DNA from: an uncultured Paracoccaceae bacterium
GTDB lineage: Bacteria; Pseudomonadota; Alphaproteobacteria; Rhodobacterales; Rhodobacteraceae
NCBI GenBank assembly: GCA_938016515.1
Contig: CALILP010000032.1
Coordinates: 1-54,932 of the forward strand
DNA: 54,932 nucleotides
Reading direction: 5' to 3'
The translations under genes were made by a program, and so were the position numbers. How positions within the stretch are numbered: position 1 is the stretch's first letter; each line of letters begins with the position of its first letter. Shown piece by piece: positions 18,743 to 40,931 of this stretch. Under the pieces are notes generated by a model that was not told the origin of the DNA, searched no databases, and worked only from the letters and a program-made list of their open reading frames with translations.

Positions 18743-18901
18743 TTGAATGTCCTTTTCTGCCATCGAAAGGGCTGAAGTTGCGATGATCTTATGGACAATG
18801 CGGCTGGTCGCCCCGGTGTCGTTTTTTATACGCCACCCAGTCTCAACGACGACTTACCCCTTAGAAATGTTCCCAAACGCAATAGGATGCAGGAGCATCA
18901 G
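18743..18901. promoter_or_regulatory. Divergent promoter region of the caspase-Sel1 and Tad-like operons
   Basis: This 159-nt gap must hold the promoters of both operons. A GTTTTTTATACG stretch near 18821 could supply a -10 element for the plus strand, but no matching -35 at good spacing is obvious. AGGAG at about 18891-18895 is the ribosome site for the ATG at 18902. Confidence 0.45.
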
Positions 18902-19036
18902 ATGACTTCTTTCGAATACATGCTGACGACAGGCGTCTACGTGACGGGCTTTCTGGCACTGTGCTATGCGCTGATCCGGGCAATACATTATAGTATGGTG
19001 ATCAAGGCGCACGTCATGTCCTTGCCCATAGGCTAA
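18902..19036 (+). CDS. Flp-pilin-like single-TM microprotein (leaderless)
   Basis: A 44-residue protein starting MTSFEYMLTT, with one hydrophobic segment (about 8-27) and a short tail. If Met1 is counted as mature residue 1, Glu5 and Tyr6 fall exactly where mature Flp pilins have their conserved Glu5-Tyr6 pair, but no prepilin leader precedes it. AGGAG with a 6-nt gap supports ATG 18902; ATG 18887 would add only MQEHQ and has no ribosome site. It opens the Tad-like operon, three bases before the first ATPase gene. It could be a minor pilin or a membrane subunit of the motor. Confidence 0.7.
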   Translation: MTSFEYMLTTGVYVTGFLALCYALIRAIHYSMVIKAHVMSLPIG

Positions 19037-19039
19037 GGG

Positions 19040-20059
19040 ATGCAGACCGAAGCCTACGACGCATTGATCCGGCATCTCATGGGCCCGCTTGTGGCCTATT
19101 ATGACGATCCGTCCGTGACCGAGATCATGATCAATGGGCCCGATGATATCTTCATTGATGGCAAAGACGGGGTTGTGAAACTGGATCATACAATGCGTGA
19201 TCCGGCCGCCCTAAAGGCCCTCGCGCGGGTGATACTGCAATTCTCGGGCAAGCGTCTGGACCCTTTCGATCTGTCGCTGGAGGCCCGCACCCCCAACAAG
19301 GCCCGCGTCCATATCGTGCAAGACCCTGCGGCACGGGCAGGCATTTCGATGGCGATCCGCCAGTTCGCCAGCAACCCGCCGACCCTTGCCGATCTAGAGG
19401 CCGGTGGATCACTCTCACCCGAGGCGTCGGCCTATCTGCGCACACAGGTCCTGGGACATAAAAATACAATCATCTCGGGCGGCACCGGGACCGGGAAGAC
19501 CACCCTTCTGGGCATCCTGACCCGCATGATGGACCCGTCTGAACGTATCCTGACGATCGAAGACGTCGCAGAGCTGGACCTGCAGATGCCCCACGTCGTG
19601 CAGCTTGAAAGCCAGTTGCCAGACGCAAAAGGGCGCGGTGGAATCACCATCAGGTCGCTCTTTCGCGCCGCTCTGCGGATGCGGCCCGACCGCATTATCG
19701 TCGGTGAATGCCGCGGCGGCGAGGCCTTGGACATGATTCAGGCCATGAATTCCGGTCATGCCGGGTCGTTGTCGACCGTTCACGCAGACGATCCCGCGCG
19801 GGCATTGTCACGACTGGAAACGTTGTGCCTGATGTCAGATGTCGAAATCCCCCTGATCGCAGTGCGCCGCCAGATTGTTGAGGCCATCGACGTAGTCGTC
19901 CAGATCCAGCGGATTGGTGGAAGGCGCCTTGTCATGGAGATCGCAGAGGTCTGCGAAGACGACGCAGGTACAGGCAAATACCAGATGCACAGTCTGTTCA
20001 AACGGGCCGATGCAGACGCCGATCTGCAGCGCATCGCACCTGATACGACATCCGCCTAA
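19040..20059 (+). CDS. CpaF/TadA-type secretion ATPase (first of two)
   Basis: A 339-residue cytoplasmic hexameric ATPase of the type II/IV secretion superfamily that would drive pilin assembly or transport. Residues 1-130 form the N-terminal domain (VTEIMINGPDDIFID). The Walker A GGTGTGKTT is at about 150-158, the Asp box TIEDVAELDLQ follows, and the Walker B/His-box region includes RPDRIIVGECRGGEALDM and GHAGSLSTVHADDP. The lengths and motifs also fit TrbB/VirB11 relatives, but the neighbours favour the Tad family. It lacks the long N-terminal extension of the second ATPase at 24833. Confidence 0.92.
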   Translation: MQTEAYDALIRHLMGPLVAYYDDPSVTEIMINGPDDIFIDGKDGVVKLDHTMRDPAALKALARVILQFSGKRLDPFDLSLEARTPNKARVHIVQDPAARAGISMAIRQFASNPPTLADLEAGGSLSPEASAYLRTQVLGHKNTIISGGTGTGKTTLLGILTRMMDPSERILTIEDVAELDLQMPHVVQLESQLPDAKGRGGITIRSLFRAALRMRPDRIIVGECRGGEALDMIQAMNSGHAGSLSTVHADDPARALSRLETLCLMSDVEIPLIAVRRQIVEAIDVVVQIQRIGGRRLVMEIAEVCEDDAGTGKYQMHSLFKRADADADLQRIAPDTTSA

Positions 20060-20116
20060 GCGGCCCCGGACATCGTAGGTTGGTGACATCAACAGCGACA
20101 ACATCGGAGCCGCCAA

Positions 20117-20236
20117 ATGTCACTCGAATATCTTCTACTTTTCGGTCTTGGCCTCGCCGTTGCGGCCGCTTTGGCCACCATGGGATCCGAGATTGCGACC
20201 TTCGTGGTCAAGCAAATCGAGGCCCTGATCACCTGA
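20117..20236 (+). CDS. Flp-pilin-like single-TM microprotein (leaderless, start forced)
   Basis: A 39-residue protein, MSLEYLLLFG, with a hydrophobic Ala/Leu-rich segment and the short tail FVVKQIEALIT. The Glu-Tyr pair near the N terminus recalls mature Flp pilins. An in-frame TGA at 20084-20086, with no ATG, GTG or TTG between it and 20117, rules out a leader peptide. GGAG lies 8 nt upstream of the ATG. It shares its opening (M-T/S-LE--L-FG) with the proteins at 20282 and 20599. Confidence 0.72.
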   Translation: MSLEYLLLFGLGLAVAAALATMGSEIATFVVKQIEALIT

Positions 20237-20281
20237 GGTCCCGCTATGAAACCTCCTGCATTTATTCAAAGGAAAAGAAAC

Positions 20282-20425
20282 ATGACACTCGAAAAACTCC
20301 TGATCTTCGGATTTGCCCTCGCCGCCCTGCTGGCGATCACAACTGTCGGCGCAAACATGATGTCCGACCGCGATGGGCAGAACCAGAAATACGAAACCGA
20401 GCTTGGTAAAATCAAAGGTTTCTAG
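20282..20425 (+). CDS. Flp-pilin-like single-TM microprotein with charged tail
   Basis: A 47-residue protein, MTLEKLLIFG, with one hydrophobic segment and a polar tail (SDRDGQNQKYETELGKIKGF). It is a paralogue of the 20117 and 20599 products. AAGGA lies about 8 nt before ATG 20282. An alternative in-frame ATG at 20246, with GAGG 7 nt upstream, would add the basic leader-like MKPPAFIQRKRN; it has no Gly or Ala at a prepilin cleavage position. Both starts are possible. Confidence 0.68.
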   Translation: MTLEKLLIFGFALAALLAITTVGANMMSDRDGQNQKYETELGKIKGF

Positions 20426-20447
20426 ACCAGCCGCGAGGAGACATCAG

Positions 20448-20609
20448 ATGACCGTCAAGCAAACCCTGATACTGTGTACCGCTTTGGTGGCCTTCGTCGC
20501 CATCAAAGCGGCCCAAGCAGAATCCTCCTACCAGAACACCTGGATTGACTGCGAACTGATGGGCCTTTCCGACCAGACTGGATGGGAAAGGTCATCCCAT
20601 GACCCTTGA
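20448..20609 (+). CDS. Small protein with signal peptide or single N-terminal TM
   Basis: A 53-residue protein. MTVKQTLILCTALVAFVAIKAAQA looks like a signal peptide with an AQA cleavage site, leaving a mature peptide of about 29 residues (ESSYQNTWIDCELMGLSDQT at its start). GAGGAG precedes ATG 20448 with good spacing. It is embedded between two Flp-like genes and overlaps the next by 11 nt in another frame. The motif SYQ recurs in the tail of the 20599 product. It could be a diverged pilin-like subunit or a small secreted peptide. Confidence 0.65.
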   Translation: MTVKQTLILCTALVAFVAIKAAQAESSYQNTWIDCELMGLSDQTGWERSSHDP

Positions 20610-20748
20610 GAAACTTCTTATTTTCGGGGCCGGACTTGCGGTTGCCGCAGCCCTTGCGGTGTCTGCACAAACGGTCTCTGACAAACGCGGCCCGCAGAAC
20701 GACTCTTATCAGGATAAGGTGATCGATCTGATCAATATCAGCATATGA
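20599..20748 (+). CDS. Flp-pilin-like single-TM microprotein (leaderless, start forced)
   Basis: A 49-residue protein, MTLEKLLIFG then AGLAVAAALAV, with a polar tail (RGPQNDSYQDKVIDL). The first ten residues are identical to those of the 20282 product. An in-frame TGA at 20557-20559, with no usable start codon before 20599, excludes a leader peptide. AAAGG lies about 7 nt upstream. Its TGA overlaps the ATG of the TadE-like gene (ATGA), tying it to the pilus genes. Confidence 0.72.
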   Translation: MTLEKLLIFGAGLAVAAALAVSAQTVSDKRGPQNDSYQDKVIDLINISI

Positions 20749-21314
20749 AACCGCTTTTGACCAAACGGCGCGCTGCGATCTCGCTCGAAGCAGTCATGGT
20801 TCTGCCCGTGTTTCTGGTTCTGTTCGGGGCGGTTGCCCAGATCATGATCACAGCACAGGGGCGCATGTTTGTTGAACAAGCAGCCTACGCAGCAGCGCGC
20901 AGCGCGTTGGTGCACATGTGCCGCCCAACAGAACCTTTTTGCACACAAGACGCACAAAAGTGGGAAGACGCAGCCCGCTGGGCTCTGGTACCTGCATCCG
21001 CAACACAAGGCGGCAGCAGTTGCCCTACGATCACCGCAGGTCAGCAAATCCTATCGACTGACAACCGCATCGCAGGACGCGATCAAGCAGCCCATAATGC
21101 GCTGTGCTACGCCTTTAACCCCACAAACATCGAAGTCACCGTCGCATGGGATTATGTCTCACGGGCCGCCCTCACCGACCCTGACAACTTACCCGTCAAA
21201 GCCACGGTCAGGTTTAAGCTGCCGCTGAACACGCCTTTCCGCAAATTTGTCGAAGACGGCAAGACCAATGGCGTCTACTGGCGCTGGGGCGAAGCCACTG
21301 TGGTGCTGTTATGA
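20745..21314 (+). CDS. TadE-like pseudopilin
   Basis: A 189-residue protein. The prepilin-like N terminus TKRRAAISLEAVMVLPVF has basic residues, a cleavage position after Ala10, Glu at +5 and the LP motif that marks TadE/TadF pseudopilins. One membrane helix (about 15-40) is followed by a periplasmic domain with five or more cysteines (HMCRPTEPFC, SSCPT, ALCYAF). It is probably processed by the prepilin peptidase at 35700 and assembled by the Tad-like machine. It overlaps its neighbours by 4 nt on both sides. Confidence 0.82.
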   Translation: MKPLLTKRRAAISLEAVMVLPVFLVLFGAVAQIMITAQGRMFVEQAAYAAARSALVHMCRPTEPFCTQDAQKWEDAARWALVPASATQGGSSCPTITAGQQILSTDNRIAGRDQAAHNALCYAFNPTNIEVTVAWDYVSRAALTDPDNLPVKATVRFKLPLNTPFRKFVEDGKTNGVYWRWGEATVVLL

Positions 21315-22903
21315 TCCGGAGTTGGCTCAATAAACGCAGACGGGGCGCGATGGCGATGGTCGCTGTCGTTGGTATGATGCCGGTCACGTCGATGTTTGCG
21401 GCCAACATCAACACCAGCCAGATCATCGAAGACCGACGCCACGTTCAGGACGCAGCAGACGCGCTGGCCAAGACCCACGGGGTTTGGACCGCTCGCGCAC
21501 TAAATGTGATTTCCATGAACAATGTCACAACGGCGCAATTGCTGACGGTGGCTGTGGGCAGCGATGCGCTGGATGCGACACTGGTCGAGCTGATAATAAA
21601 CGCAGGGCTGCAAGAAGCAGAAATCCTTGCCCACGGTCTCCGCGAATGTGCGCCTCGCTTCAAGTTTTTGCCCGCTGATCTTGGATGGGCGGCAATCTGC
21701 GTGCCCCAGCATGCGGCCGTCGCTTTGCCTGCCGTGAATGCCCAGCTTAAAGCCGACGAGATCTATCGCAGGTTTGATCCCTTGCATGGCTCGCGGGTCG
21801 CGACCAAAGCACTTGCGGCAATCGAGGGCATGAACCGTGCCCTGATCGCGCGGCACCCGCGTGCGATGCGTGAAATTGGCGCCGATTATGCCAAATTTCT
21901 GGGGATTGATGACTACCACTTCGCCGATCCCTGCGGCAGCCCGCTTGCACGCAATTGCCAGCGCACCAACAGCCGCGATGGCATGGCATTGCCACTGGAA
22001 CCGGGCGGCATGATCGAAAATATGGAAATGTGCGCGGCGATGCGCAGGGGCAATACGGGCCTGCAAACCACCTTTGATGCGCGCGGCTTCAAGACGTTTC
22101 AAGGTCCGATCAGTTATGGCGGCAGCGCCCAGAACCGCAATGTCAAAGACCATATCAACGAGGTCACGAAGATTGGCCTGACGCTGCAAGACTATGACAG
22201 GTTCTACAGAAGCGGGCTTGCACATATGGTCCGTCATCCGCTGAGTGGCCCACGCTTCACACCAGCAGGCAACATCCAGACCATTCCGCGGGGTCGCTAC
22301 ACACTTCCACTTTTCCCGCTCTATGCGCTTCAGGTGACACGCATGGTGCCGCTCTTATTCTTTGATCGCAACGTCGCGCAGGGCGCATTTCTTGATCGTC
22401 AAACGCGCAACGGCCACAACGCATTCAAGCGTTGGTTTGAAATCAAATTTGGCGCTGTCTGTGGTGGCTTTGCAGATGTCCCGATCATCGGTCTTGCCGC
22501 AAAGGTGCCGACCCTATGGAAGCTGACAGGGGTCAGCATTGTGGACCGCGCCCTTAACCGGACACCCGAGCAGATGGATGAGGCGTTTCACATTCTGGCT
22601 TTTGCGCTCAAGAAGCCTGCCAAGCCACGCGATATGGTGATCCCCTATCTGACCGCTCAGGTGACACCGGGTGATATCGCAGATCAGACTGCCTACGGCC
22701 AAGTTGGCGTCTTCAACCCGGATGGTGCCACGCTTTATGCGCAATCATGGCGCGCCCGGCTGATGGCTGCAACACGCATGGACGATGTGTCTGACGCGGC
22801 CAGCAATCTGAACCGCGAAAGTACGGCCAGTTTCGACGACCTTGCCAACATGTTGGGCGGTGTCTCGGATCAATCAACGTGGGGGCGGGTTCATGCGCAC
22901 TAG
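21311..22903 (+). CDS. TadG-like membrane-anchored protein
   Basis: A 530-residue protein. The N terminus (NKRRRGAMAMVAVVGMM, then NINTSQIIEDRRHVQDAADALA) matches the TadG-like N-terminal domain: a single helix followed by the sequence with a D-AADAA-type motif. The remaining 470 residues are periplasmic and not assignable; no vWA MIDAS motif was seen, unlike canonical TadG. The Cys-containing stretch FADPCGSPLARNCQR could form a disulfide. The ATG overlaps the TadE-like stop. It likely contributes to anchoring or a tip complex. Confidence 0.75.
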   Translation: MIRSWLNKRRRGAMAMVAVVGMMPVTSMFAANINTSQIIEDRRHVQDAADALAKTHGVWTARALNVISMNNVTTAQLLTVAVGSDALDATLVELIINAGLQEAEILAHGLRECAPRFKFLPADLGWAAICVPQHAAVALPAVNAQLKADEIYRRFDPLHGSRVATKALAAIEGMNRALIARHPRAMREIGADYAKFLGIDDYHFADPCGSPLARNCQRTNSRDGMALPLEPGGMIENMEMCAAMRRGNTGLQTTFDARGFKTFQGPISYGGSAQNRNVKDHINEVTKIGLTLQDYDRFYRSGLAHMVRHPLSGPRFTPAGNIQTIPRGRYTLPLFPLYALQVTRMVPLLFFDRNVAQGAFLDRQTRNGHNAFKRWFEIKFGAVCGGFADVPIIGLAAKVPTLWKLTGVSIVDRALNRTPEQMDEAFHILAFALKKPAKPRDMVIPYLTAQVTPGDIADQTAYGQVGVFNPDGATLYAQSWRARLMAATRMDDVSDAASNLNRESTASFDDLANMLGGVSDQSTWGRVHAH

Positions 22904-23483
22904 ACGCCGCGGCTCTTTTTCGGTGGAATCCGCAATGGTCATACCGGTTGCCCTGATCGTGATCCTTCTGGCGCGCCTTGTCTTAGAAGCATCTTTGGCC
23001 CGACAAGAGGTCTCGGTCTACACCCGCATGGGAACGCACACCGCCGCAGCCGCGAAATCAACCGGCCTGACGGGATGCATCGCGGACAAAGACGCCTTTA
23101 GTGGCCGCGCAGATGTCACACAAACGGCCACCTTAACCTGCAACCAACGCGATGCTGAACGCGGTCTTTCCCAAGAACGCCCCTTCTGGGATGCCGTTGA
23201 ACGCGGGGCCCAAGCATGGCGCGGCATTCTTGCGGATGTCAAACCACGTGGCCCCGTCCGTGACATCACCGGCGACGGAACAGGCACCTTGGATCTGGGC
23301 GGATCCGACTTTCTGCAACGGCGCGATACGGTCACGTCAGACTACACGTTCATTGCGCCGCAAAACATACGCTGGGACCATGATGAGCGGCCCCTGCAGC
23401 GCGGCCATGACCAAGCAATCTGGAAAGAACTGCGCAAGCGCGGCACCTACCGCCTTTTCCCCGAAGTGTTCCCAAGCAGGTGA
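22893..23483 (+). CDS. TadE/TadF-like pseudopilin
   Basis: A 196-residue protein with a clear prepilin-type N terminus, MRTRRRGSFSVESAMVIPV: cleavage after Gly7 would leave Glu at +5, with the IP/LP motif in the helix. The mature part is basic and rich in charged residues, with two cysteines. I start at ATG 22893, which overlaps the TadG-like gene by 11 nt; the earlier in-frame ATG 22842 would add 17 residues before the leader. It is the second TadE-type gene of the locus. Confidence 0.8.
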   Translation: MRTRRRGSFSVESAMVIPVALIVILLARLVLEASLARQEVSVYTRMGTHTAAAAKSTGLTGCIADKDAFSGRADVTQTATLTCNQRDAERGLSQERPFWDAVERGAQAWRGILADVKPRGPVRDITGDGTGTLDLGGSDFLQRRDTVTSDYTFIAPQNIRWDHDERPLQRGHDQAIWKELRKRGTYRLFPEVFPSR

Positions 23484-23487
23484 TCTG

Positions 23488-24129
23488 ATGTTCCGCTTTG
23501 CCTTTATGTTCTTGCTGATCTGGCCAGCAATTGGTCTGGCGGATCAATCCGTGCGCCAGTTCCACGCACAAGTCCCTGCGAATGCGGACACAGTCATACA
23601 AGAGCTGCAGCGCCAATTGCCTGACAGCGTGTTGATCGCAGAAGGTGCGGTGGAAGCGATGCTCACATACTCTGGCCTCAGCACGCCCCCCGCGCTTGCC
23701 AGCTTCCTGATTGCGACCTTCCCCACGCTTTCTTGGGATGTGGTGGCACCGGGCAAGGCCATCGTTGTCAGCCTGACGATAAGTGATGGCGCGGAAGGCG
23801 GGCATGTCACTGCCCTGATCAACGGGTCATTTCCGGCCATCATGCCCGACTTTGCCTTACCCATCGAGACGGACATCCTGATGGAAACGGATATGCCAGG
23901 ATCATGCGCTGGCCAAAAGATCCTGTCGCACCCAAAGGACATAGCAACGACCGCGGACATCTTTCAAAACCTGTTGAAAAATCAGGGCTTCCACCCAGAG
24001 CCGAACAGCCCACAAGACGTGTCGTTTTTTATCGGACGTTCTGACAGCTGCAGCGCCATCCTTTATCTTCAGGCTGATCCCGACGCCGACGACACAACGC
24101 TGGTCGTCCTGAGATTATTGGAGGACTGA
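23488..24129 (+). CDS. Exported protein of unknown function in the Tad-like operon
   Basis: A 213-residue protein with a signal peptide (MFRFAFMFLLIWPAIGLA) and a mature part of about 195 residues. Two cysteine-containing stretches (PGSCAGQKI, SDSCSAILYL) could form a disulfide. I recognise no family. ATG 23488 is preceded by AGGTGAT. The stop overlaps the CpaB-like start by one base. Its position, where some tad operons encode periplasmic or pilotin components, suggests an envelope role, but this is only contextual. Confidence 0.7.
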   Translation: MFRFAFMFLLIWPAIGLADQSVRQFHAQVPANADTVIQELQRQLPDSVLIAEGAVEAMLTYSGLSTPPALASFLIATFPTLSWDVVAPGKAIVVSLTISDGAEGGHVTALINGSFPAIMPDFALPIETDILMETDMPGSCAGQKILSHPKDIATTADIFQNLLKNQGFHPEPNSPQDVSFFIGRSDSCSAILYLQADPDADDTTLVVLRLLED

Positions 24130-24836
24130 TGCGCAATATCTTTTACTTACTCGCGGCCATGCTCTCTTTCGGGGTGGGGTTCTATTACTTCCAGCAGGTG
24201 GCCGCGCAAACAGCGACCGTTTCCAAGCTGCGGCTGGTCGCAGAAGACGGGCTGATCATCACCAAAGGCACGGTTGTTGATGATGCCTTTATCGACCAAT
24301 ACGTGGTGTCGCAGCCGATGCCTCAGGCTTTGGAAGACACCTTTGGCTGGGCGCTGGACGATAGCCCGATTACCCTGATCAACCTGCGCGGCCGCACCTT
24401 CGGTCAGGATGTCCCCTCTGGCAGTTTCCTGCAACGCGCGCATTTCTTTCTTGCCCCGCAGGAGGCCTTTGCCCGTCGCATCCGCCCCGGCAATCGCGCG
24501 TTTTCAATCAAGATCGAAGAGGCCCGCGCCGTCGAGAACTTTATCAATCCCGGTGCCCGCGTCGATGTAATCGGAACGTTCGTGGCGGATGATGAGGTAA
24601 CAATCTACACCCGCCGCTTGCTGGAAAACGCCGAAGTCATGGCCGTTGGCGCCTTTGACAATTCAGGCGCGTTTCGCGGTCAGGATAACCCGGAATATAG
24701 CAGCGTAACCTTGCAAGCGGCAGCACCCGTCGTCGAAGCCTACCTTGCGCAAGAGGTCCTGTCGGTCAACGATATGACCCTCGTTTTGCGCAACCCCTGC
24801 GAAGACGCGGATGATTGCGTCGCGGTCACCCAATGA
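24129..24836 (+). CDS. cpaB: CpaB/RcpC-like Flp pilus assembly protein
   Basis: A 235-residue protein with an N-terminal membrane anchor (NIFYLLAAMLSFGVGFYYF) and a SAF/CpaB periplasmic domain: PSGSFLQRAHFFLAP, then RIRPGNRAFSIKIEEARAVENFINPGARVDVI, the family signature. CpaB normally works with the outer-membrane secretin CpaC/RcpA, yet no secretin gene is present here. Two C-terminal cysteines (NPCEDADDC) may form a disulfide. The start overlaps the preceding stop by one base and its stop overlaps the next ATG. Confidence 0.88.
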   Translation: MRNIFYLLAAMLSFGVGFYYFQQVAAQTATVSKLRLVAEDGLIITKGTVVDDAFIDQYVVSQPMPQALEDTFGWALDDSPITLINLRGRTFGQDVPSGSFLQRAHFFLAPQEAFARRIRPGNRAFSIKIEEARAVENFINPGARVDVIGTFVADDEVTIYTRRLLENAEVMAVGAFDNSGAFRGQDNPEYSSVTLQAAAPVVEAYLAQEVLSVNDMTLVLRNPCEDADDCVAVTQ

Positions 24837-28540: not shown

Positions 28541-29340
28541 TGGCGCTGTTTGGACCCAAAGGTTTCGCGGCGGAAGTCACCGAAGGCATCGACCTTGAAA
28601 GCCAGATCACCCTGACGGGCGGCCGGATCACCATCGGCAACGGACCGCAAGACGACTTGCGGCTTGGGGCCGATGATATCGTGCCAGAGCATCTGACATT
28701 TCAGCAGCGCGACGACGGCAAATGGGAATACTTTACAACCGGGCGTGGCGAGACACAGATCGACAAGGGCAATCCCCGGACGGGCCTTTTGCGGGCAGGC
28801 ATGTGGTTTCGCATTGGGCATGAGACGAAAATCGTCCTCAAACGCGCAGATGTCCCCGTCGAGGACGGCAAAACCGGCAGCAGTCAGGTGCCGCTCACCA
28901 TTGCGATCCCAGCTTTGTTGGCGATGGCCGCCTTGGCACTCCTGTTTGTGCTGAACAATCGAGAGGCGGATGGCCCCTCAAACGGGTTGCAAACCGCCGC
29001 ATGGTTCACAGGCACCGCAGATCTGACACCGGCCCTGGATGCATGCCTGACCCATGCGTTGACCCCACCTGCCTATGCCACGGCAAGTGCCATCGACGGT
29101 CCGTTCTGGTTGGTGATGGCGGGGGCTGAAGGCGCGCAATCGGCACGCGGCGACCTGCAGAAGGCCGTTCAGAACATCATCTCGGAAACCCACATTCTGT
29201 CTGGCGAAAACCGGCATCTGGAAGCCTCGCAAGTGCTACGTCGTATTGAATACGTTTTGCCGCTTGGCACGCATTCCTGCCCTATCCTTTCAGCTGCCCG
29301 CATCGACCTCGCTCTGTTGGAGATGCGCGGCACCAGATAA
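28540..29340 (+). CDS. FHA-like domain protein with a single membrane helix
   Basis: A 266-residue protein. Residues about 20-105 fit an FHA fold (GGRITIGNGPQDDLRL, IVPEHLTFQQRDDGKW), keeping the Gly-Arg but with Val in place of the conserved Ser. A membrane helix at about 125-145 (IPALLAMAALALLFVL) places the FHA domain in the cytoplasm and a C-terminal domain of about 110 residues with two cysteines in the periplasm. It probably links a cytoplasmic recognition event to the envelope part of the machine. It overlaps TadC by one base and is 21 nt before the pseudokinase gene. Confidence 0.72.
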   Translation: MALFGPKGFAAEVTEGIDLESQITLTGGRITIGNGPQDDLRLGADDIVPEHLTFQQRDDGKWEYFTTGRGETQIDKGNPRTGLLRAGMWFRIGHETKIVLKRADVPVEDGKTGSSQVPLTIAIPALLAMAALALLFVLNNREADGPSNGLQTAAWFTGTADLTPALDACLTHALTPPAYATASAIDGPFWLVMAGAEGAQSARGDLQKAVQNIISETHILSGENRHLEASQVLRRIEYVLPLGTHSCPILSAARIDLALLEMRGTR

Positions 29341-29361
29341 GCCAAACCGCAGGACCGCACC

Positions 29362-31908
29362 ATGAGCGACACCGCCAACAACGTCATCGACGCCCGCCTG
29401 ACCGAGGCACTGGGGCAGTATTTTAACGGCGTTGCCCTCAAGCAAACTGTCGGGGACTGCACAATCCTGTCTGCCGTGCGCAAACAGAACGGTGCGCCCG
29501 TCGACATCTACACACCCAGCTACACCGTGGCGCGCGACGATGAGGTGACGGGCAGCATCGCCAAGGCCTTTGCCACCTATGACAAACTGAACAGCACGCG
29601 GTTGCAATCCCCGGAACGATTGCTGACCACCAAAGCCTTCAAAAAAGCCCCCGCCCTTGCCGTGCTCAGCTGCCCGGTGCCTGTGTTCGACGACGCCTTT
29701 GATACGCATCCTGTTGATGCGAAACTGCAAATCTTCGATGAGATCCTCGACGGGCTTGCAACGCTGCATCAGGCGGGTTTGATCCACGGCAACCTGTCCG
29801 ACATTGCAGCGCGGCGCGAGGCCCCGGATGGCAGTTTGCGCCTCTGCGATCTGACGTTTTCCGGCGACCGTGCGACAACCGTAACGGCACAACCGACAGC
29901 CTATCAATCCCGCAATGTCATCAACACAACACAGCCCAGCCTTGTGGATGATGTGCATGCCGCCGGGATGCTGGGCTATCGCATTCTGTTGGGTCCACGC
30001 GGATTATCACAAGTCCTGACCGGCCAGCCCGATACAGAGCCTGACCAATTTGCAGCCGCCATTCTTGGCGAAGACCGTGACGCCCCAACCCCAGAGCAGT
30101 TGTTCCCGGACGGTCACGCCAGTGCGACACAAATCTCGCGGCTTTTGGCCCGTATGACCGGGCGCCTCCCTCAAGTCGGGCCCTACAGCAGCGCCGACGC
30201 CGCCCGGCGCGCGTTTCATACGGTGCGCGACAATCCACAAACCGGGCAAACAGCATCAGCGCCGGTCGCAATTGCACCTGCGGCAGCGCCCCTCCCCCGA
30301 TCTGTCGAGACCAGTGCACAGGGCATCTCGCGACCTGTGGCCGTCATGATCTTCGGCGGTTTTCTGGCAAGCACCGCTGCTGCCGGACATTTCTATACCG
30401 AGAATACAGGCCTGATTTTTGAAAAGCGCCTGCATCTCGATGCCATCGACAGCCTAAAGGCAACCATCACCCAGGAACGCGCGGTCGCGGCATCTGCACT
30501 TACCTCGCATCTGGCAATTGTTGAGGCGACGAAGGTCGTCGACCTTGCAGACTACCAAGGTGCAGCCAAAGCCTCAGCCGAGGCAAACGAATATCTTTCG
30601 ACTGCGCAAGCCGCGCAAATTGCAGCATCGGACGCCCACGCTGCAGGGTCATTCGACGACGCAACGACCTCTGCAGAATTGGCGAAGACGCAAGCCACTT
30701 TGGCGCGCGAGGCAACTTTGACAGCCATCGATGTGGCGGCAACCGCAAAGGACCGTGCAAACGTTGCAATGGCCACTGCAAACCTTGCAGCCGGATCCGA
30801 TCATTCGTTGTTGACCAAGCCCACTGATCTTATGAACCGCGCCAGTTCAGCCTATGAGGACGGCACGCATACCAAAGCCACGCAGCATTGGACTGACGCC
30901 GCGGCCGCCTTCGCTGATGCAACAACAACCCTGCAAGATCAGGCCTCAGACGCGCAGGCAACCTTTACGGCCCAATCCTCGGATGCGGCGGAAACCACAC
31001 CGCAAGTGGTTCTCGCAAAGACGTTCGCCGTGCGGGCAGAAGGGGCTGTGACACAAGGCAAATACGCAGACGCGATCGCTCTGTTTGAGGCAGCCTCAGA
31101 GGCGCTTGGCAACACCCGTACCGAAAACACGCGCCCGGCAACCGAAGCATTGACCTTAGAAATCCAGATCGGCGATGACCCCGCCACCTTGCAAGCCGCC
31201 ATCACGCTTTGCCTGACAGACGCGCCAATCCCCGATGAAAGCTGCCCGGCCAGCCGCCCCGGCGACGAAGCGCGCCGCGCAGCCACAATTGGCCCTTTCA
31301 CACTTGATCCGCATGAGGTGAGCGCCGCAGACTTTGCAACCTTTGTCGCAGACACAAATCACCGGACCAGCGCGGAAAACAACGTTCGTGTGGTCGCCCT
31401 GACCAGCAGCGGCGAGGCCCGGTTCATCGACGGCGATTATACGTGGGCCACCCCTGGCGGAAAAGATACGACGTATCAAACCGCCCCTGATCGGCCTGTT
31501 ACAAACGTTAGTATGGAAGACGCTGCTGCATATTGTCATTGGGCGGATGCCCGACTGCCCTCGGAAGCCGAGTGGGAATATGCAGCACGTGCCGGATCAG
31601 ACACTGCATTCCCCTGGGGTGTCTGGTCTGCAGATCAGGCAGCATGGCGCGGCGCTCCCACCGCAGCCATGCGCCTGCCCCAAAACGTGACTGCAGCCGG
31701 TGGCGCGGCAGCAGATGGTCACCTTGGCCTGTCGGGAAATGCCCGCGAATGGGTGATGGGGGCAGACGGGGCCGTCTTGAAAGGCGGATCGTGGAACACG
31801 GCCAATCCCGCTGACTTGCGGATCTCTGCGCGCCTGACTGTCCCCGGCAACGCCCCCGGCGTCGACTTTGGTTTCCGCTGTGCCCGCAATCTGGAGGCAT
31901 GGCCATGA
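29362..31908 (+). CDS. Pseudokinase-TM-helical-FGE-fold fusion protein
   Basis: An 848-residue protein. Residues about 20-285 resemble a Ser/Thr kinase domain (LATLHQAGLIHGNLSDI), but the catalytic Asp of HRD is replaced (H142-G143-N144), DFG is replaced by DLTFSG, and no VAIK lysine or glycine loop is seen, so it is most likely inactive. A membrane helix at 324-345 follows. About 300 Ala-rich helical residues come next, then a formylglycine-generating-enzyme/sulfatase-modifying fold (about 640-848: GPFTLDPHEVSAADFATFV, ARLPSEAEWEYAARAG, GNAREWV, GGSWNTA, GFRCARN). The catalytic Cys pair of true FGE is not seen, so this domain may only bind ligands. The periplasmic FGE domain and cytoplasmic pseudokinase suggest a transmembrane scaffold. 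Confidence 0.85.
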   Translation: MSDTANNVIDARLTEALGQYFNGVALKQTVGDCTILSAVRKQNGAPVDIYTPSYTVARDDEVTGSIAKAFATYDKLNSTRLQSPERLLTTKAFKKAPALAVLSCPVPVFDDAFDTHPVDAKLQIFDEILDGLATLHQAGLIHGNLSDIAARREAPDGSLRLCDLTFSGDRATTVTAQPTAYQSRNVINTTQPSLVDDVHAAGMLGYRILLGPRGLSQVLTGQPDTEPDQFAAAILGEDRDAPTPEQLFPDGHASATQISRLLARMTGRLPQVGPYSSADAARRAFHTVRDNPQTGQTASAPVAIAPAAAPLPRSVETSAQGISRPVAVMIFGGFLASTAAAGHFYTENTGLIFEKRLHLDAIDSLKATITQERAVAASALTSHLAIVEATKVVDLADYQGAAKASAEANEYLSTAQAAQIAASDAHAAGSFDDATTSAELAKTQATLAREATLTAIDVAATAKDRANVAMATANLAAGSDHSLLTKPTDLMNRASSAYEDGTHTKATQHWTDAAAAFADATTTLQDQASDAQATFTAQSSDAAETTPQVVLAKTFAVRAEGAVTQGKYADAIALFEAASEALGNTRTENTRPATEALTLEIQIGDDPATLQAAITLCLTDAPIPDESCPASRPGDEARRAATIGPFTLDPHEVSAADFATFVADTNHRTSAENNVRVVALTSSGEARFIDGDYTWATPGGKDTTYQTAPDRPVTNVSMEDAAAYCHWADARLPSEAEWEYAARAGSDTAFPWGVWSADQAAWRGAPTAAMRLPQNVTAAGGAAADGHLGLSGNAREWVMGADGAVLKGGSWNTANPADLRISARLTVPGNAPGVDFGFRCARNLEAWP

Positions 31909-33284
31909 AGCACGCCATCACCACCGCAGCCATTCTCCTCAGCGCCGCGACCGCCCAAGCCGAAGACCGTGCTTTAATCATTGGGATCGACAGCTATAGC
32001 CAACCGTTGAACGGCGCTGCAAATGATGCTGTGCGCTTTGCAGGTACGATTACAGAGGTCTGGGATTTCCCGACCCAAGGTATCACGACCCTCACCAACG
32101 CGGCTGCAACCTCAGACGCGATTATGACGGCGCTGATTGACGAATTGGTCGGCAAGACCAGTCCGGGTGACCGTGCGATCCTCTATTTCGCTGGCAATGG
32201 CACACGGCTGCCGGATGGGCAGCCTGCACTGATTGCACATGACGCAGACGCGCTACTTGGCAAAATTCCTTCGGATGTGATCGCGGATATCCTTGATCTA
32301 ATCCCCGACCGGGACGTCACCGTTATCATCGACGCGGGCTTTGACGGGCGGGCCGATCTGATCGGCAGCACGCTGCCACGCGGTGTTGCGGGCGGGCTGT
32401 CTGCGGATGCAACTGCTTTTGGCGTTGGTGCGGCACCGCGCACGATCTGGAACGCGGCGCAAGCCGGGCAATTCGCATGGGAAGACATCGACCGGGGTGT
32501 CTTCACACATGCCCTGACAAAGGCGATGACGCTGAAAGACGGTGATGCAAATGCCGATGACAACATCACGAATGCAGAGCTGCTGGATCACCTGACCGCG
32601 CAAACCAGCCTGTGGTGCGATACCAACCCAACATGTCTTGCGGAAGGACGCGGATTTTCACCCACCTTCGCGGGGCCATTGGACACAACAATCCTGACAA
32701 AACCGGCCCCTGTCGCGGCACCCGCACCTGTGACAGATCCCATTCTCCCGGCCTCCAGCGCGCCTGCGACCTACCAAGAAACACTGGGGTTTGTGACGGA
32801 TCTATTCGCGCCCAGCAATGATGCGGGACTTGCCTTGGGCATGACGAACGGACCGAACCCACAGGTCGGAGACATCGTGGCGTTCAAGGTCTCATCGGAT
32901 CGCCCCGGTCAACTTGTCTTGCTTGACGTAGACCCGGCGGGGCATCTGGCGCAGGTCTTCCCCTCACGGCTGGTGCCCGATGGCACAACACAGATCGCGG
33001 CGGGGGCCACCCTGACGATCCCGAACGGGCGCAGCGCAAATGGCAAGCCAATCCGTCTGCGGGTGTCGGAACCTGCGGGACAAGGGCTCTTGCTGGCAGT
33101 GTTGGTCGAAGATGATGTGGCGGCCCTTACCGATATCCTGCCTGCGTCCATCGCCAATGGCGCAATCCCGGACGCTGGCCAATACCTTTACGCCATTTCG
33201 CAAGATCTGCTTGCGCGTCAGGCCGATCCTACAAACCCGATCCGCTGGTCGGCGACGTACTTGCCCTACCAAATCCAACCTTGA
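31905..33284 (+). CDS. Inactive caspase-like protein with DUF4384-type C-terminal domain
   Basis: A 459-residue exported protein. A signal peptide (ITTAAILLSAATAQA) precedes a caspase-fold domain (RALIIGIDSYSQPLNGAANDA). The catalytic His is Asn98 in YFAGNGT and the catalytic Cys is Gly145 in IIDAGFDG, so it should lack peptidase activity. After about residue 300, VGDIVAFKVSSDRPGQLVLL fits DUF4384, a domain that often accompanies bacterial caspases. The ATG at 31905 overlaps the TGA of the pseudokinase gene. Its active relative lies 0.9 kb downstream, so it may regulate or scaffold that protease. Confidence 0.85.
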   Translation: MKHAITTAAILLSAATAQAEDRALIIGIDSYSQPLNGAANDAVRFAGTITEVWDFPTQGITTLTNAAATSDAIMTALIDELVGKTSPGDRAILYFAGNGTRLPDGQPALIAHDADALLGKIPSDVIADILDLIPDRDVTVIIDAGFDGRADLIGSTLPRGVAGGLSADATAFGVGAAPRTIWNAAQAGQFAWEDIDRGVFTHALTKAMTLKDGDANADDNITNAELLDHLTAQTSLWCDTNPTCLAEGRGFSPTFAGPLDTTILTKPAPVAAPAPVTDPILPASSAPATYQETLGFVTDLFAPSNDAGLALGMTNGPNPQVGDIVAFKVSSDRPGQLVLLDVDPAGHLAQVFPSRLVPDGTTQIAAGATLTIPNGRSANGKPIRLRVSEPAGQGLLLAVLVEDDVAALTDILPASIANGAIPDAGQYLYAISQDLLARQADPTNPIRWSATYLPYQIQP

Positions 33285-33309
33285 TCCAGATCGCAAAGGA
33301 CCCTCTCCG

Positions 33310-34188
33310 ATGCAAAAGTTACTACCCATGTTTTTGACCCTCGCGGCCGCACCCGCTTTGGCTTGTCCGCAATACGATACTGTGGTCGCAGCCGTGCAGT
33401 CAGACGACACAACCAGCGCAGAGGTGCTGTACGATGAGATCGTGTTCAGTGCGGCCTGCGACGATGCGATCCGCGAATGGGTCGGCGACTATCTGGCCCG
33501 CGACAGCTTTTTGGCAGCACTTGATGAAACCGACACGTCTGAAAAGCGACGGTTGCTGGAAAACGCCCTTGGGTATGAAACCCACTGGCGCAGCTATGCG
33601 GCCCTTGGTCAGCTGGATTGGAGTCAAAGCGCCTATGCAGCGGCAGCCACCAACCTGCAATTGGCCCTGAACGCATTGGCCGAAGGTGACCCGACGCACG
33701 CAGCCACTGACGCCGAAATTGCAGAGGTTTATGACCTCGCAACAGCGGCACTTGCCCTTGCGGACACACCCGTCGAGATGCCCAAAACCCGCAGCGGTAC
33801 GACCGGCGGAATTTTCACAACGCGCATTCGCGGTTTTGAGATCGAAGAAGTCTCTTTGCCGATTACCTTTGCCTATAACTCGACGGAATTTGACGTGGTT
33901 GGGGCCGATTACGCGACTGTTTTGGCGGAACATGTCACGACGTTCGCCCCAGACGTTATTACACTTGGCGGCCACACTGATCCGGTCGGAAGCGATGATT
34001 TCAACATGGAATTGTCTGTGGCCCGTGCCACAAAGGTCAGTGCTTTCCTGCGCGATGCTGGGTTCACCGGTGAAATCCTTGTGGCAGGTCATGGAGAAAC
34101 GCAACTGCCGCCAGCCCCGCCAGGCATCACGCCCGGTTCAGAAGAACACCACCGCATCGCGCGGCGTGTCGCGTTCTCGATCAACTAG
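33310..34188 (+). CDS. OmpA-domain envelope protein
   Basis: A 292-residue exported protein. A signal peptide (LLPMFLTLAAAPALA) is followed by a helical, TPR-like region (RLLENALGYETHWRSYAALG, AAAATNLQLALNALAEGD). The C-terminal 110 residues form an OmpA peptidoglycan-binding domain (LPITFAYNSTEFDVVGADY, ITLGGHTDPVGSDDFNMELS, RRVAFSIN). It probably anchors the apparatus or its proteases to the wall. AAAGGA lies upstream of ATG 33310. It sits between the two caspase-family genes and its stop directly precedes the next ATG. Confidence 0.85.
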   Translation: MQKLLPMFLTLAAAPALACPQYDTVVAAVQSDDTTSAEVLYDEIVFSAACDDAIREWVGDYLARDSFLAALDETDTSEKRRLLENALGYETHWRSYAALGQLDWSQSAYAAAATNLQLALNALAEGDPTHAATDAEIAEVYDLATAALALADTPVEMPKTRSGTTGGIFTTRIRGFEIEEVSLPITFAYNSTEFDVVGADYATVLAEHVTTFAPDVITLGGHTDPVGSDDFNMELSVARATKVSAFLRDAGFTGEILVAGHGETQLPPAPPGITPGSEEHHRIARRVAFSIN

Positions 34189-35703
34189 ATGCGTTGTCTG
34201 GCCTATATGATGTGTATGGCGGTTTGGGCCGTACCGGTGCAGGCGGCACAGACCTATGGTCTTGTGATCGGAATTGATGCCTATGACCGGGTGATCGACC
34301 TGCAAGGTGCGGTGAATGACGCCCGTGATATCGCAGATGCGCTGAAAGGTCTGGATGCAGAAGTCACGCTGCTGCTGGATCAAGAGGCGTCGCGGGCAGC
34401 TATCCTGCAATCATGGCAGGACATCCTCGACAAGGCGGCCCCCGGCGACACGCTGATTGTCACCTACGCCGGTCACGGCTCAAACGAGCCGGAACATACG
34501 CCCGGCAACGAAGAAGACGGGCTGGACGAGAATTTTTTGCTGTCCGGATATTCCCCTTACGGAAAAGCAGCTGGTGAGCGCATCCGCGATGATGAAATCG
34601 CAGACCTGATCGCGCAACGTCCTGACCTAGAGGTCATTATCGTGGCCGACGCCTGCCACGCAGGCACCGTGACACGCAACCTCAAGCCCGCCCTTGGGTA
34701 TCGCTATGTCTCTCCGACCCGGATTGAAAATGACCCCTTGCCACCGCCGCCACCGCGTCCTGTCGGCGGCGATGGTCAGTCCGATGTGGCCTTATTTCTG
34801 GCGGCTGTCAGCGAAACCCAGAAGGTGCCGGAATTCCTGATCGACGGCACCCCGCGCGGCGCACTAAGTTATGCCTTTGCGCAGGGTTTGCGGGGGGCCG
34901 CAGACCACAACGGCGATCAGTTGCTGACAAAGGGAGAGTTGGAAACCCATGTCCGTCGGACTGTCCGCATCGTATCGCAGGGCGTGCAACTGCCGCAGGC
35001 CTTTCCGGTTGGTGCTGTGGAAACACCACTTATTGCCATGTCACGATCTGCAAAGACCCAACCGCGGCCGCAAGACCTGTCATTTGAAAACCTGCCCCCG
35101 CTGACCCTTGCGACCGACGCACCTTTGCCAGCCCTTGCAACAGTCATTCCTGCAGCACCACTTTCGCCTGCAGATGCGCACTATGACTTTGGCTCTGGCG
35201 ATGTGACGTCGATGGTGGGGGACGTCATCGCAACGGTGAATGGGCCAGCCGCACTGGCGCCGGTCATGGCCAAGATGCAGGTCGCAAAGGCGCTGTCGGA
35301 CATCGCCGACACCAGACTGTCCATCACATTCGCGCAAGGCGACCGGACCTATCGCGCCGGCAATATCTTGACGGTGGATATCCTCAATCGCAGCACGCAG
35401 CATCTAACGCTGATCAATATCGCATCGACGGGTGAGGTCGCCATGTTGTATCCCATCGCCTCTGCCGGTGATCCGTCCAGCCTCCCCCCCCAAGACACAG
35501 TGCACCTGCCCCTTCAGGTCGCGGCCCCATTTGGTGCAGACCATGTGGTTGCTTTGGAAAGCCTTGACGATCCGGCGCAGCTGAGACGGCAATTGTCAGA
35601 CCTGTCCGGGACATCGCAGATCGCAGGCCTGTGGGATCTTATTCGGACGCAACCTGACCTGAACGTCGCAGTCTTCCCGTTTTTCACAGTAGGTCAGGAA
35701 TGA
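34189..35703 (+). CDS. Caspase-family protease with intact His/Cys dyad and DUF4384-type domain
   Basis: A 504-residue exported protein. A signal peptide (ending VPVQAA) precedes a C14 caspase domain (YGLVIGIDAYDRVIDLQGAV). Catalytic H96 lies in TYAGHGSN and C156 in VADACHAG, so the protease should be active; the specificity is unknown, although metacaspase-like enzymes usually cleave after Arg or Lys. An EF-hand-like DHNGDQLLTKGELE (about 243-256) could bind calcium. A DUF4384-type domain occupies the C-terminal 150 residues (GDRTYRAGNILTVDILNRST). It starts immediately after the OmpA gene stop and overlaps the peptidase gene by four bases. Confidence 0.9.
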   Translation: MRCLAYMMCMAVWAVPVQAAQTYGLVIGIDAYDRVIDLQGAVNDARDIADALKGLDAEVTLLLDQEASRAAILQSWQDILDKAAPGDTLIVTYAGHGSNEPEHTPGNEEDGLDENFLLSGYSPYGKAAGERIRDDEIADLIAQRPDLEVIIVADACHAGTVTRNLKPALGYRYVSPTRIENDPLPPPPPRPVGGDGQSDVALFLAAVSETQKVPEFLIDGTPRGALSYAFAQGLRGAADHNGDQLLTKGELETHVRRTVRIVSQGVQLPQAFPVGAVETPLIAMSRSAKTQPRPQDLSFENLPPLTLATDAPLPALATVIPAAPLSPADAHYDFGSGDVTSMVGDVIATVNGPAALAPVMAKMQVAKALSDIADTRLSITFAQGDRTYRAGNILTVDILNRSTQHLTLINIASTGEVAMLYPIASAGDPSSLPPQDTVHLPLQVAAPFGADHVVALESLDDPAQLRRQLSDLSGTSQIAGLWDLIRTQPDLNVAVFPFFTVGQE

Positions 35704-36257
35704 TCGGTGTGTGGTTCATGCTGTCCGTTGGACTAGCAACGTTTGCGTCCCTGTCGGTCGTGAACCACAGTGAGGTGCTCAAGCTCGACCGTCGGTGGCT
35801 GCTTGGGCTGGCGGTGCTGGTGGCCTTGGGCTTAGGCAATGTCGGGTCAGCCAACCAGATATGGTCCATTGTGCTGGTCTCGCTTTTGATGGCCATCGCA
35901 GTCACCGACCTCAAGACGCAGCTGTTGCCGGATTGGCTGACCGGGCTGCTTATCGGCGCAGGCCTCATGCAATCGGGCTTTGCCTTTCCTGCAATGGCTG
36001 GTGCGGCAATCTGTATCCTATGCGGCCTCGCAAATGCGACCATCACCCGCGACGAAGGAATGATCGGCAGCGCGGACTACCTGCTGTGCGGGGCGCTGGT
36101 CGCGTGGCTTGGTCCCTTGCACGCCATTGATGCCTTTGCTGTGGCATTGGGGGTCTTTGGCCTGCAACTGATCATCACACGCAGCAAGATCGCGGCCTTT
36201 GCACCGGCCATCGCCATCGGCCTGTCTGTCATCTGGTTCGGAGGACCCATCCTATGA
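35700..36257 (+). CDS. A24-type prepilin peptidase (TadV/CpaA-like)
   Basis: A 185-residue membrane protein with about six hydrophobic segments. The first catalytic Asp is D70 in AVTDLKTQLLPDWLT and the second D126 in GMIGSADYLL, where the usual Gly-x-Gly-Asp reads Gly-Ser-Ala-Asp. The enzyme should cleave prepilin leaders in the membrane; plausible substrates are the two TadE-like proteins of the locus, as the Flp-like microproteins have no leader. The ATG overlaps the caspase stop by four bases. Confidence 0.85.
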   Translation: MIGVWFMLSVGLATFASLSVVNHSEVLKLDRRWLLGLAVLVALGLGNVGSANQIWSIVLVSLLMAIAVTDLKTQLLPDWLTGLLIGAGLMQSGFAFPAMAGAAICILCGLANATITRDEGMIGSADYLLCGALVAWLGPLHAIDAFAVALGVFGLQLIITRSKIAAFAPAIAIGLSVIWFGGPIL

Positions 36258-37039
36258 CCGAAACACCCCCCAAAGAATTCCGCGTGATCTCGAACGATGA
36301 TCGTGTCCGGCAAACTGACTTGACGGGTAAACAGCCACAGTTGACAGTCAAAGCCGGGGGGCGACACATGACAGATGCGATGAACGACGTCTCACAGACG
36401 TCACCCGGCGGCGATAGCGTGCAACTGGCGTTTGAAACGGTCGAATGCACGTTGCGGGCGGAAAACTGGTTCTTCGAGACCGTGCGCAAAGAGTTGGCAA
36501 AGACCGCAGACCTGTCTGACTTTCCAACGATCATGGGGTCGAACGGGCATGACTATCTGCTGCATTTCACCCAGTTTATGTTCTTTCTCAAGGCGTTGGA
36601 TTGCACGGACGCCGACCAGATATCAAACTACATCGAGGCGCATAACAAACGTCTGGGCGACATGATTGCGGATCCGTCTTTCACCAAAAGCCCCAAGGAA
36701 TACCGCAAGGCCATCTTTCGGCCCGAACGCAAAGCCAAGATCCTTGATACCATCCGCATGCTGCGCGCGCCGGTTTTTGCGATCTACGAATATGGGCACC
36801 TATTGATCGATGAAATGTCGCCCAAAACCACCGAAAAGCTGATCGAGGATCTGCGTCATGGCAATCTTTTGTCCCGCAGGATCGATGACCGGATCACGGC
36901 GGATCAAAAACGCATCCTGATCGGATCGACCGGATTTCTAGAGGATACCTACCGCACGTCCCTGCTGATGCAGCGCCGGATGATTGCGATGACGATGTCT
37001 GATCAGGAGTTTCAGAAAGCGAAAGCCAGCGCGCCCTAA
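36254..37039 (+). CDS. Soluble protein of unknown function ending the Tad-like operon
   Basis: A 261-residue protein with no signal peptide or membrane helix. Residues 1-60 look disordered and polar; the rest is helical (ENWFFETVRKELAKTADLSD, then HDYLLHFTQFMFFLKALDC). I recognise no family. The ATG overlaps the peptidase stop by four bases, so it is part of the operon. Its stop overlaps that of the convergent Crp/Fnr gene. A cytoplasmic adaptor or effector role fits the context but is unproven. It could start at an internal ATG (36368), which would remove the disordered part. Confidence 0.7.
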   Translation: MTETPPKEFRVISNDDRVRQTDLTGKQPQLTVKAGGRHMTDAMNDVSQTSPGGDSVQLAFETVECTLRAENWFFETVRKELAKTADLSDFPTIMGSNGHDYLLHFTQFMFFLKALDCTDADQISNYIEAHNKRLGDMIADPSFTKSPKEYRKAIFRPERKAKILDTIRMLRAPVFAIYEYGHLLIDEMSPKTTEKLIEDLRHGNLLSRRIDDRITADQKRILIGSTGFLEDTYRTSLLMQRRMIAMTMSDQEFQKAKASAP

Positions 37040-40929: not shown

Positions 40930-40931
40930 AC

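Follow-up and report, generated by a model that had tools for sequence, protein, structure and literature searches.

A Tad-type gene block with FHA, kinase-like and caspase genes in an uncultured Paracoccaceae bacterium

The closest described relatives of the gene block reported here are machines of the Tad/Flp pilus type. The block comprises 21 plus-strand open reading frames (ORFs) at positions 18902-37039 of a 54,932-nt stretch of DNA from an uncultured Paracoccaceae bacterium, called the window throughout (contig CALILP010000032.1 of assembly GCA_938016515.1; C32 of a 3.43-Mb draft genome, G000, that is 81.4% complete and in 227 contigs), and it combines Tad genes with genes for FHA, kinase-like and caspase proteins. 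The Kil system of Myxococcus xanthus is described as an FHA-Tad machine used for contact killing (PMC8460266, PMC12075869). Its ATPase, KilF, is a CpaF fused to an FHA domain and is accompanied by several FHA proteins, platform proteins and CpaB (PMC8460266). FHA-CpaF ATPases of Tad systems are also known as class III CpaF, which is reported to be mostly betaproteobacterial, the CpaF proteins of Alphaproteobacteria belonging almost solely to class II (PMC12019362). With our own FHA profile the fusion was found in 34 of 80 loci, and as it is known both as KilF and as class III CpaF, it was dismissed as a novelty of the window. An earlier note on this DNA, made by a model from the sequence alone, knew of no described Tad system with this composition; the whole set was indeed not found described, but the FHA-ATPase fusion taken alone is not new. 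By title or abstract, the open-access literature (subscription papers and preprints lie outside this scope) describes neither the set nor a combination of Tad and caspase genes. The set turns up again in a handful of distantly related bacteria and on plasmids of rhizobia, which points to a real, undescribed device with a possible role in controlling proteolysis at the cell envelope.

As in Kil, an FHA domain is fused to a Tad ATPase in the window, although here it is degenerate and unseen by Pfam. Unlike the window, Kil as described in PMC8460266 has a secretin (KilC), a single ATPase and no TadG, and the terms caspase, pseudokinase, OmpA and sulfatase are absent from the main text of that paper. 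In a tree of 95 ATPase rows, whose bootstrap had not settled so that support values are rough, the window FHA-ATPase belongs to a clade of 11 (93/98) together with those of three other genomes of the family (G079, G253 and G112, with G000 the window group), a rhizobial one, that of locus L030 and five from planctomycetes. Each of the 11 belongs to a locus that also encodes a kinase or pseudokinase, although in L032 this gene is truncated by the end of the contig; among the other 74 loci of the 80-locus sample, a kinase ORF lay within the stretch covered in 6. The Myxococcaceae locus L108, which by its gene order is probably Kil, and two Bdellovibrionota loci fall elsewhere in the tree than the window clade, and L108, L039 and L067 form a separate group (83/62; the tree holds no M. 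xanthus sequence). An identity of the window locus with Kil was rejected on the grounds of two ATPases, no local secretin and a separate ATPase clade; Kil is an analogue only.

Class III CpaF shares the ATPase architecture, from which the window differs by the degenerate FHA domain and a second ATPase. OmpA-like parts also occur in the control of the type VI secretion system (T6SS) by phosphorylation. In this threonine-phosphorylation control (PpkA, Fha, TssL), a kinase and FHA proteins are arranged around a secretion machine (PMC3953482). Unlike that arrangement, the window block contains no recognized T6SS gene, and its kinase and FHA domains look inactive. Like the canonical Tad/Cpa pilus, the block has TadA, TadB, TadC, CpaB, TadE/G-like proteins and a prepilin peptidase; unlike it, the block has no secretin and no CpaE among its Pfam matches, and G000 has a locus of the canonical kind on contig C5. 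A paper on Rhodobacterales Tad systems does not use the words caspase, FHA or kinase in its main text (PMC8383342). Bacterial pseudo-orthocaspases, which keep the caspase fold without the His-Cys pair, are reported with Tyr/Ser replacements (PMC6426788), whereas the pseudocaspase of the window has other replacements (e.g. Asn/Gly) and adjoins a Tad machine.

The composition, order, strand and overlaps of the block given in the earlier note agree with a re-reading of the ORFs and their Pfam/NCBIfam matches. The largest gap between genes is 57 nt; from the short ORF pil5 onward it is 25 nt, and 12 of the 15 junctions overlap or abut. Over the cut-offs are T2SSE and T2SSF (twice each), RcpC/CpaB, Peptidase_A24, FGE-sulfatase, Peptidase_C14 (twice) and OmpA. 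A Tad apparatus is thus represented over cut-off by a TadA ATPase with TadB and TadC, CpaB/RcpC and a prepilin peptidase. Pfam names neither FHA nor kinase in the window proteins themselves. These labels hold by comparison, because relatives have the corresponding matches (PF00498 in 4 of 7 aligned FHA-ATPases, PF00069 in 2 of 5 aligned kinase-FGE proteins) and because structural models of the FHA-TM protein and the kinase part support them. The model of the FHA-TM protein resembles solved FHA domains (Foldseek E=3e-8), and that of the kinase part matches kinases (E=3e-5) at low confidence, with a mean predicted local distance difference test score of 54.5, residues 1-108 below 50 and a poor N-lobe.

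The suggestion that this is a dedicated, conserved envelope apparatus is well supported by the presence of the same set in other genomes. Searches of 295 family genomes with the FHA-ATPase and with the kinase-FGE protein found both in the same four, G000, G079, G253 and G112. The kinase-FGE protein matched 12 genomes at E<=1e-15, with the N-terminal part in these four alone and the FGE part alone in the other eight. The FHA-ATPase matched 41 genomes at E<=1e-85; these four reached E<=1.6e-142 and covered the FHA part, the next best value was 5e-89, and among the matches listed all others begin at residue 178 or later. One other searched genome of the genus had neither protein. Across 385 genomes of the class, a kinase-FGE profile matched 61 at 1e-20, with full length only in G000 and the kinase part alone in one other. 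A profile of the FHA-ATPase matched 123 of 235 genomes in the phylum of genome G675 (at 1e-90); of the matches listed, only the one in G675 covers the FHA part, so no members were added from there. The gene order is retained in G079, in G253 (without casp2, the second caspase gene) and in G112 (without a match to 'peri' or orfZ). A nearly identical order is found in L030, from the metagenome-assembled genome (MAG) OFTM108, which is named Deltaproteobacteria in its title and Myxococcota in the tree tool; there the peptidase lies near the start. The signalling genes are present in G079, G253, G112, L030 and rhizobia, and this co-occurrence with kept gene order rules out a local insertion in the window genome.

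Phosphothreonine-binding FHA domains have a conserved Arg and Ser, and active Ser/Thr kinases have the VAIK Lys and HRD Asp. The residues below were read by eye in alignments. The FHA-CpaF ATPase (24833..26770, +, 645 aa; PF00437 E=2e-54) and the FHA-TM protein (28540..29340, +), whose FHA fold is followed by one hydrophobic helix (119-137) and a helical C-terminal part, both lack the canonical Arg and Ser; the latter also resembles the YscD-type FHA family of the type III secretion system (T3SS) below cut-off (E=0.003). Of 11 compared sequences that belong neither to the window group nor to rhizobia, 10 keep the Arg of the ATPase FHA domain and one, L109, has Lys; none of the 5 from these two groups keeps it. 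In the FHA-TM protein it is present in L031, L040 and L060, replaced by Lys in L030 and lost in the window group. The kinase part belongs to an 848-aa pseudokinase-FGE protein (29362..31908, +; PF03781 E=8e-32), in which the Lys is absent and HGN replaces HRD; G079, G253 and G112 share this state; in the rhizobial protein the Lys is likewise missing and HNA stands in the HRD place. Kinases of L031, L040, L060, L075 and L041 keep both Lys and catalytic Asp, and that of L030 has Arg in place of Lys. The DFG Asp is missing in G079 and the rhizobial protein. The kinase and the ATPase FHA domain have thus lost key residues in the window group and rhizobia. Active formylglycine-generating enzymes have an active-site cysteine pair; none was noticed in the C-terminal part of the window protein. 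A W..WH insert is common to the kinases of L030, L031, L032, L040, L060 and L075 and was not seen in L041 or Azospirillum. In the Pirellulaceae kinase of L075 (12440-15811), which lies in an FHA-Tad locus, a small profile of our own matched a caspase-like stretch at the C-terminus (E=4e-8). Pfam detected no caspase in this protein, so the fusion is only a lead.

Judged by its catalytic residues, the block contains one inactive and one apparently active caspase, as had been claimed. The product of casp1 (31899..33284, +; PF00656 E=8e-12) is a pseudocaspase with Asn for His and Gly for Cys, and casp2 (34189..35703, +; PF00656 E=1e-16) encodes an intact His-Cys pair; DUF4384 is over cut-off in the former and just below in the latter. 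Between them lies an OmpA-like protein (33310..34188, +; PF00691 E=7e-7). All three, and the flanking caspase casp3, have by eye signal-peptide-like N-termini, which would place the caspases in the periplasm. One or both catalytic residues of casp1 are lost in 5/5 Tad-linked copies (window, G079, G253, G112 and Rhizobium WSM1325), with Asn/Gly, His/Gly, Leu/Ser, Val/Ala or Gln/Cys at the His/Cys places, and the pair is intact in 4/4 unlinked copies (G233, G008, G017 and G579). No full-length FHA-ATPase was found in G233, G008 or G017 (G233 87% and G008 82% complete; G579 was outside the search). Both catalytic residues are kept in all 17 aligned casp2-type proteins, and casp3 also has the His-Cys pair. 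In a caspase tree the rhizobial dead casp1 groups with two living copies (92/88), apart from the other four dead ones (97/95), which hints that casp1 died twice independently; the sample is small and the rhizobial long branch was flagged as unsure by the tool. In G253, locus L025 carries a casp3-like caspase with intact motifs downstream.

Related parts are found on rhizobial plasmids. Among 72,556 plasmid records, the TadG-like protein and the rhizobial FHA-ATPase (1e-100) each matched 89 (88 Rhizobium and one Neorhizobium), and the rhizobial caspase (1e-20) matched 93 (88 Rhizobium, one Neorhizobium and four Azospirillum); the FHA-ATPase and caspase searches were compared by counts, not by full accession lists. 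The kinase-FGE protein found nothing at 1e-15, its rhizobial counterpart having diverged too far. A TRAP permease encoded in the window finds its best plasmid matches mostly among genera of Alphaproteobacteria. The regions of WSM1325, 3841, CFN 42, R. binae and N. galegae were read, and in all five, relatives of the kinase, a serpin, a trypsin-caspase, a caspase and a DUF4384-OmpA protein are found no more than about 25 kb from the Tad block, the parts forming two separate blocks up to about 20 kb apart. In phmmer comparisons, the trypsin protein matches casp1 with its C-terminal half, and the DUF4384 protein matches OmpA likewise with its C-terminal half; casp2 corresponds to the caspase and casp3 to the far caspase. 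A 43-aa ORF stands ahead of tadA2, at the position of pil1, the first gene of the window block. The kinase is annotated as SUMF1/EgtB/PvdO family in N. galegae and as Ser/Thr kinase in the others. The whole region is present on Neorhizobium galegae pNgVX (L259, 11834-41404), where many genes, FHA-ATPase included, are split over at least two ORFs, so this copy is perhaps broken or mis-sequenced.

A secretin is absent from the window block: PF00263 was found in G000 only on C5 and C27, and the C5 secretin is accompanied by CpaB and ATPase genes, forming a second, separate Tad locus. Five proteobacterial-type Tad loci were checked (G000, G079, G253, G112 and L030) and none has a secretin; the six secretins of the L030 genome all lie outside its 21.7-kb locus. 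Plasmids pR132502 and pRL11 carry none (the search covered the plasmids). The planctomycete locus L040 contains one (ORF 5404-7320); for the other planctomycete loci the search was incompletely resolved, some matches being unassigned to a locus. The secretin on C27 (L029, 1976-6673) lies beside a protein with an FHA-like start that by eye resembles a T3SS YscD relative, and L029 is possibly a type III secretion locus.

Five short ORFs of 39-53 aa lie near the start of the block. Pil1 (18902..19036, +, 44 aa), pil2 (20117..20236, +, 39 aa, MSLEYLL), pil3 (20282..20425, +, 47 aa, MTLEKLLIFG) and pil5 (20599..20748, +, 49 aa, MTLEKLLIFG) are pilin-like, and pil4 (20448..20609, +, 53 aa) has a hydrophobic N-terminus and is not clearly so. 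Short ORFs starting with M[ST]LE[YK]LL are shared by G000, G079 and G253, and G112 has ORFs that resemble them. With regard to a Flp leader peptide, pil2 and pil5 begin without an in-frame upstream start codon, and pil1, pil3 and pil4 have two, one (at 20246) and two possible upstream starts, respectively. Within 20117-20748, two pilin-like ORFs thus open directly at a mature-like hydrophobic segment, yet the peptidase gene is retained.

These features suggest, tentatively and at somewhat less than an even chance, a kinase-derived Tad machine at the inner membrane that is scaffolded by pseudoenzymes and acts on periplasmic caspases. The ancestor would have been a phospho-regulated Tad machine in which a Ser/Thr kinase wrote, and FHA domains on the ATPase and a membrane protein read, the signal. 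In the window group and rhizobia, phosphotransfer would have been lost, the pseudokinase and FHA domains persisting in a scaffolding role, by which the ATPase is tethered to the envelope. Short pilins and TadE/G proteins would be assembled by the motor into a short pseudopilus, which it would present or block at the periplasmic caspases; no long pilus would be pushed out through a secretin of its own. Anchoring and gating of the active caspases would fall to the dead caspase and the OmpA protein. A signal from the envelope or from contact, sensed with the aid of the cyclase and CRP protein that flank the block, would thereby be turned into proteolysis in the periplasm. As far as residues in alignments can tell, the ATPase clade plausibly traces how a Tad machine whose kinase looks intact, as in planctomycetes, could give rise to one whose kinase is dead and whose FHA domains are altered. 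It is rather doubtful that the locus represents a separate class of type IV filament machine, without its own secretin and phospho-signalling, in which a pseudokinase, a pseudocaspase and an FGE-like domain, likewise taken as a pseudoenzyme, couple the motor to active periplasmic caspases; in that case a pilus-type motor would govern proteolysis inside the outer membrane instead of extruding a fibre. To our knowledge, few partners of exported bacterial caspases are known, and a conserved block that ties such caspases and one dead caspase to a single machine is a place to ask for their targets and restraint. Rhizobium johnstonii 3841 is a routinely mutated strain, and with the same parts on its plasmid pRL11 the question is testable by gene deletion.

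A number of observations weigh against this pseudoenzyme-scaffolded machine. G253 keeps the dead casp1 and has no casp2 in its genome at E<=1e-50, so casp1 cannot exist solely for gating casp2. L030 has no casp1, and its single caspase is intact and nearest to casp3. The Asp at the DFG position is retained in the kinases of the window, G253 and G112. The rhizobial FHA-TM protein retains its Arg, the rhizobial and L030 pilins have leader-like N-termini, and pil1, pil3 and pil4 have the possible upstream starts given above; the kinase, FHA and pilin features have therefore not all degenerated together, and a simultaneous loss in all three is only partly borne out. No segment of the window kinase-FGE protein exceeds the hydropathy threshold, so that its membrane span is an assumption. 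Secretins that could be borrowed exist elsewhere in G000, G079, G253 and G112 (at least one each), and p42e carries one about 160 kb from its Tad block (only the plasmid was searched). The protease cassette also occurs alone. Casp2-type caspases were found in 12 of the 295 family genomes at 1e-50 and in 3 of the 385 class genomes at 1e-60, and 12/12 places read in 10 genomes had no match to the Tad queries (G579, G055, G233, G101, G008 twice, G017, G250 twice, G082, G099 and G258); two of these are on contigs of only 8.6 and 10.3 kb, where the absence of Tad is weak. Several carry OmpA, casp1, trypsin or serpin relatives. The idea that the caspase cassette always accompanies a secretion machine was discarded on these 12 Tad-free places, where T6SS was sought with Azospirillum queries only, which may overlook distant T6SS genes.

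The strongest alternative, which we consider possible and on the whole unlikely, is a genuine pilus or secretion apparatus that relies on a secretin encoded elsewhere, for instance in the canonical Tad locus, with the caspases as cargo or cargo processors. The second Tad locus on C5 with its secretin, CpaB and ATPase could serve in this way, and G079, G253 and G112 have one candidate each, a secretin with an open frame of 480-482 aa like that of C5. The prepilin peptidase and a cleavage-like site in TadE-like 2 are retained, and Kil, as described, kills by contact with an FHA-Tad machine (PMC8460266, PMC12075869). However, no cargo or variable tip gene was noticed, though no dedicated search was made, and two rhizobial plasmids lack a secretin (within the plasmid scope above). 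Moreover, with their signal-peptide-like N-termini the caspases need not leave the cytoplasm through the Tad machine.

Independence of the two halves is a less likely explanation, to which we give little weight: the FHA-Tad genes and the periplasmic protease cassette would be distinct units that travel together without joint function. The 12 Tad-free places, often with OmpA, speak for such independence, as do the separate rhizobial blocks and a close casp2 relative that adjoins T6SS genes in Azospirillum. Against it, the two parts are linked repeatedly: throughout the window group, in the five rhizobial records and, involving a different caspase, in the Myxococcota MAG. Dead casp1 copies are also confined to the Tad-linked cases. 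A device for self-directed death or defence, which would sense damage or infection and release the caspases on the cell's own envelope, is likewise given little weight. In a scan of 10 proteins, PADLOC models did match all three window caspases (caspase model; E 5e-14, 3e-19 and 8e-7), the flanking cyclase (Pycsar cyclase, 2e-13), the kinase-FGE protein (MkoA, 7e-8) and the OmpA protein (ZorB, 9e-7), but these matches are partial and domain-level and together make up no known system as far as could be judged. The caspases also appear to be exported, far from phage replication, and a serpin beside the rhizobial caspases would suggest restraint. Taken as a whole, the interpretation in the earlier note is partly supported; it had overlooked the degenerate look of the FHA domains, the lack of a secretin and the continuation of the system beyond both ends of the block.

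The remaining Tad genes are all on the plus strand. TadA2 (19040..20059, 339 aa) is a second, Tad/TrbB-type ATPase without FHA (PF00437 E=9e-49; TIGR03819 below cut-off), and TadA2 proteins form their own clade in the ATPase tree (99/98). TadE-like 1 (20745..21314, 189 aa; PF07811 E=1.6e-4, 0.8 bit below cut-off) and the TadG-like protein (21311..22903, 530 aa; PF13400, the Tad family, E=1.1e-3) match slightly below their cut-offs. There is no Pfam match for three proteins: TadE-like 2 (22893..23483), whose N-terminus, RRRG/SFSVE, resembles by eye a prepilin cleavage site and which has relatives in G079, G253 and G112; the exported-looking 'peri' (23488..24129), unassigned to a family; and the likewise unassigned orfZ (36254..37039), present in G079 and G253. 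CpaB/RcpC (24129..24836, 235 aa; PF16976 E=1.4e-14), TadB (26760..27626; PF00482 E=2e-10), TadC (27626..28540; PF00482 E=4e-7) and the A24 prepilin peptidase (35700..36257; PF01478 E=2e-9) complete the set, TadB and TadC being the platform proteins.

Stand-alone caspase cassettes show further arrangements. L210, L213, L214 and L165 have OmpA, casp2 and a living casp1 without a Tad-query match, and L210 and L165 add trypsin and serpin relatives. On plasmid AZO_p3 of Azospirillum lipoferum 4B (L160, 2680-21536), two caspase genes, one of them the close casp2 relative (317 bits), lie by T6SS genes, TagH (FHA), a kinase and TagF.

The extent of 18902..37039 holds for the 21-gene block, and the system continues beyond both ends. 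On the minus strand upstream are casp3, a caspase with Sel1/TPR repeats (15281..17737; PF00656 E=1e-35), and orfL, a small exported-looking ORF (18443..18763) that also adjoins the operon in G079 and G253. Downstream, likewise on the minus strand, are a CRP-type regulator (37036..37758) and a protein with AAA and adenylate/guanylate cyclase parts (37795..41016). In G079, casp3 and orfL have the same upstream placement as in the window, and the CRP and cyclase genes, downstream in the window, are also linked there on the upstream side. Next to the Tad block of Rhizobium 3841 and of CFN 42 lies a smaller cyclase relative, divided into two ORFs in the latter strain. Both strains have a caspase of the casp3 type at the far end of the region, and such a caspase is also present in N. 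galegae.

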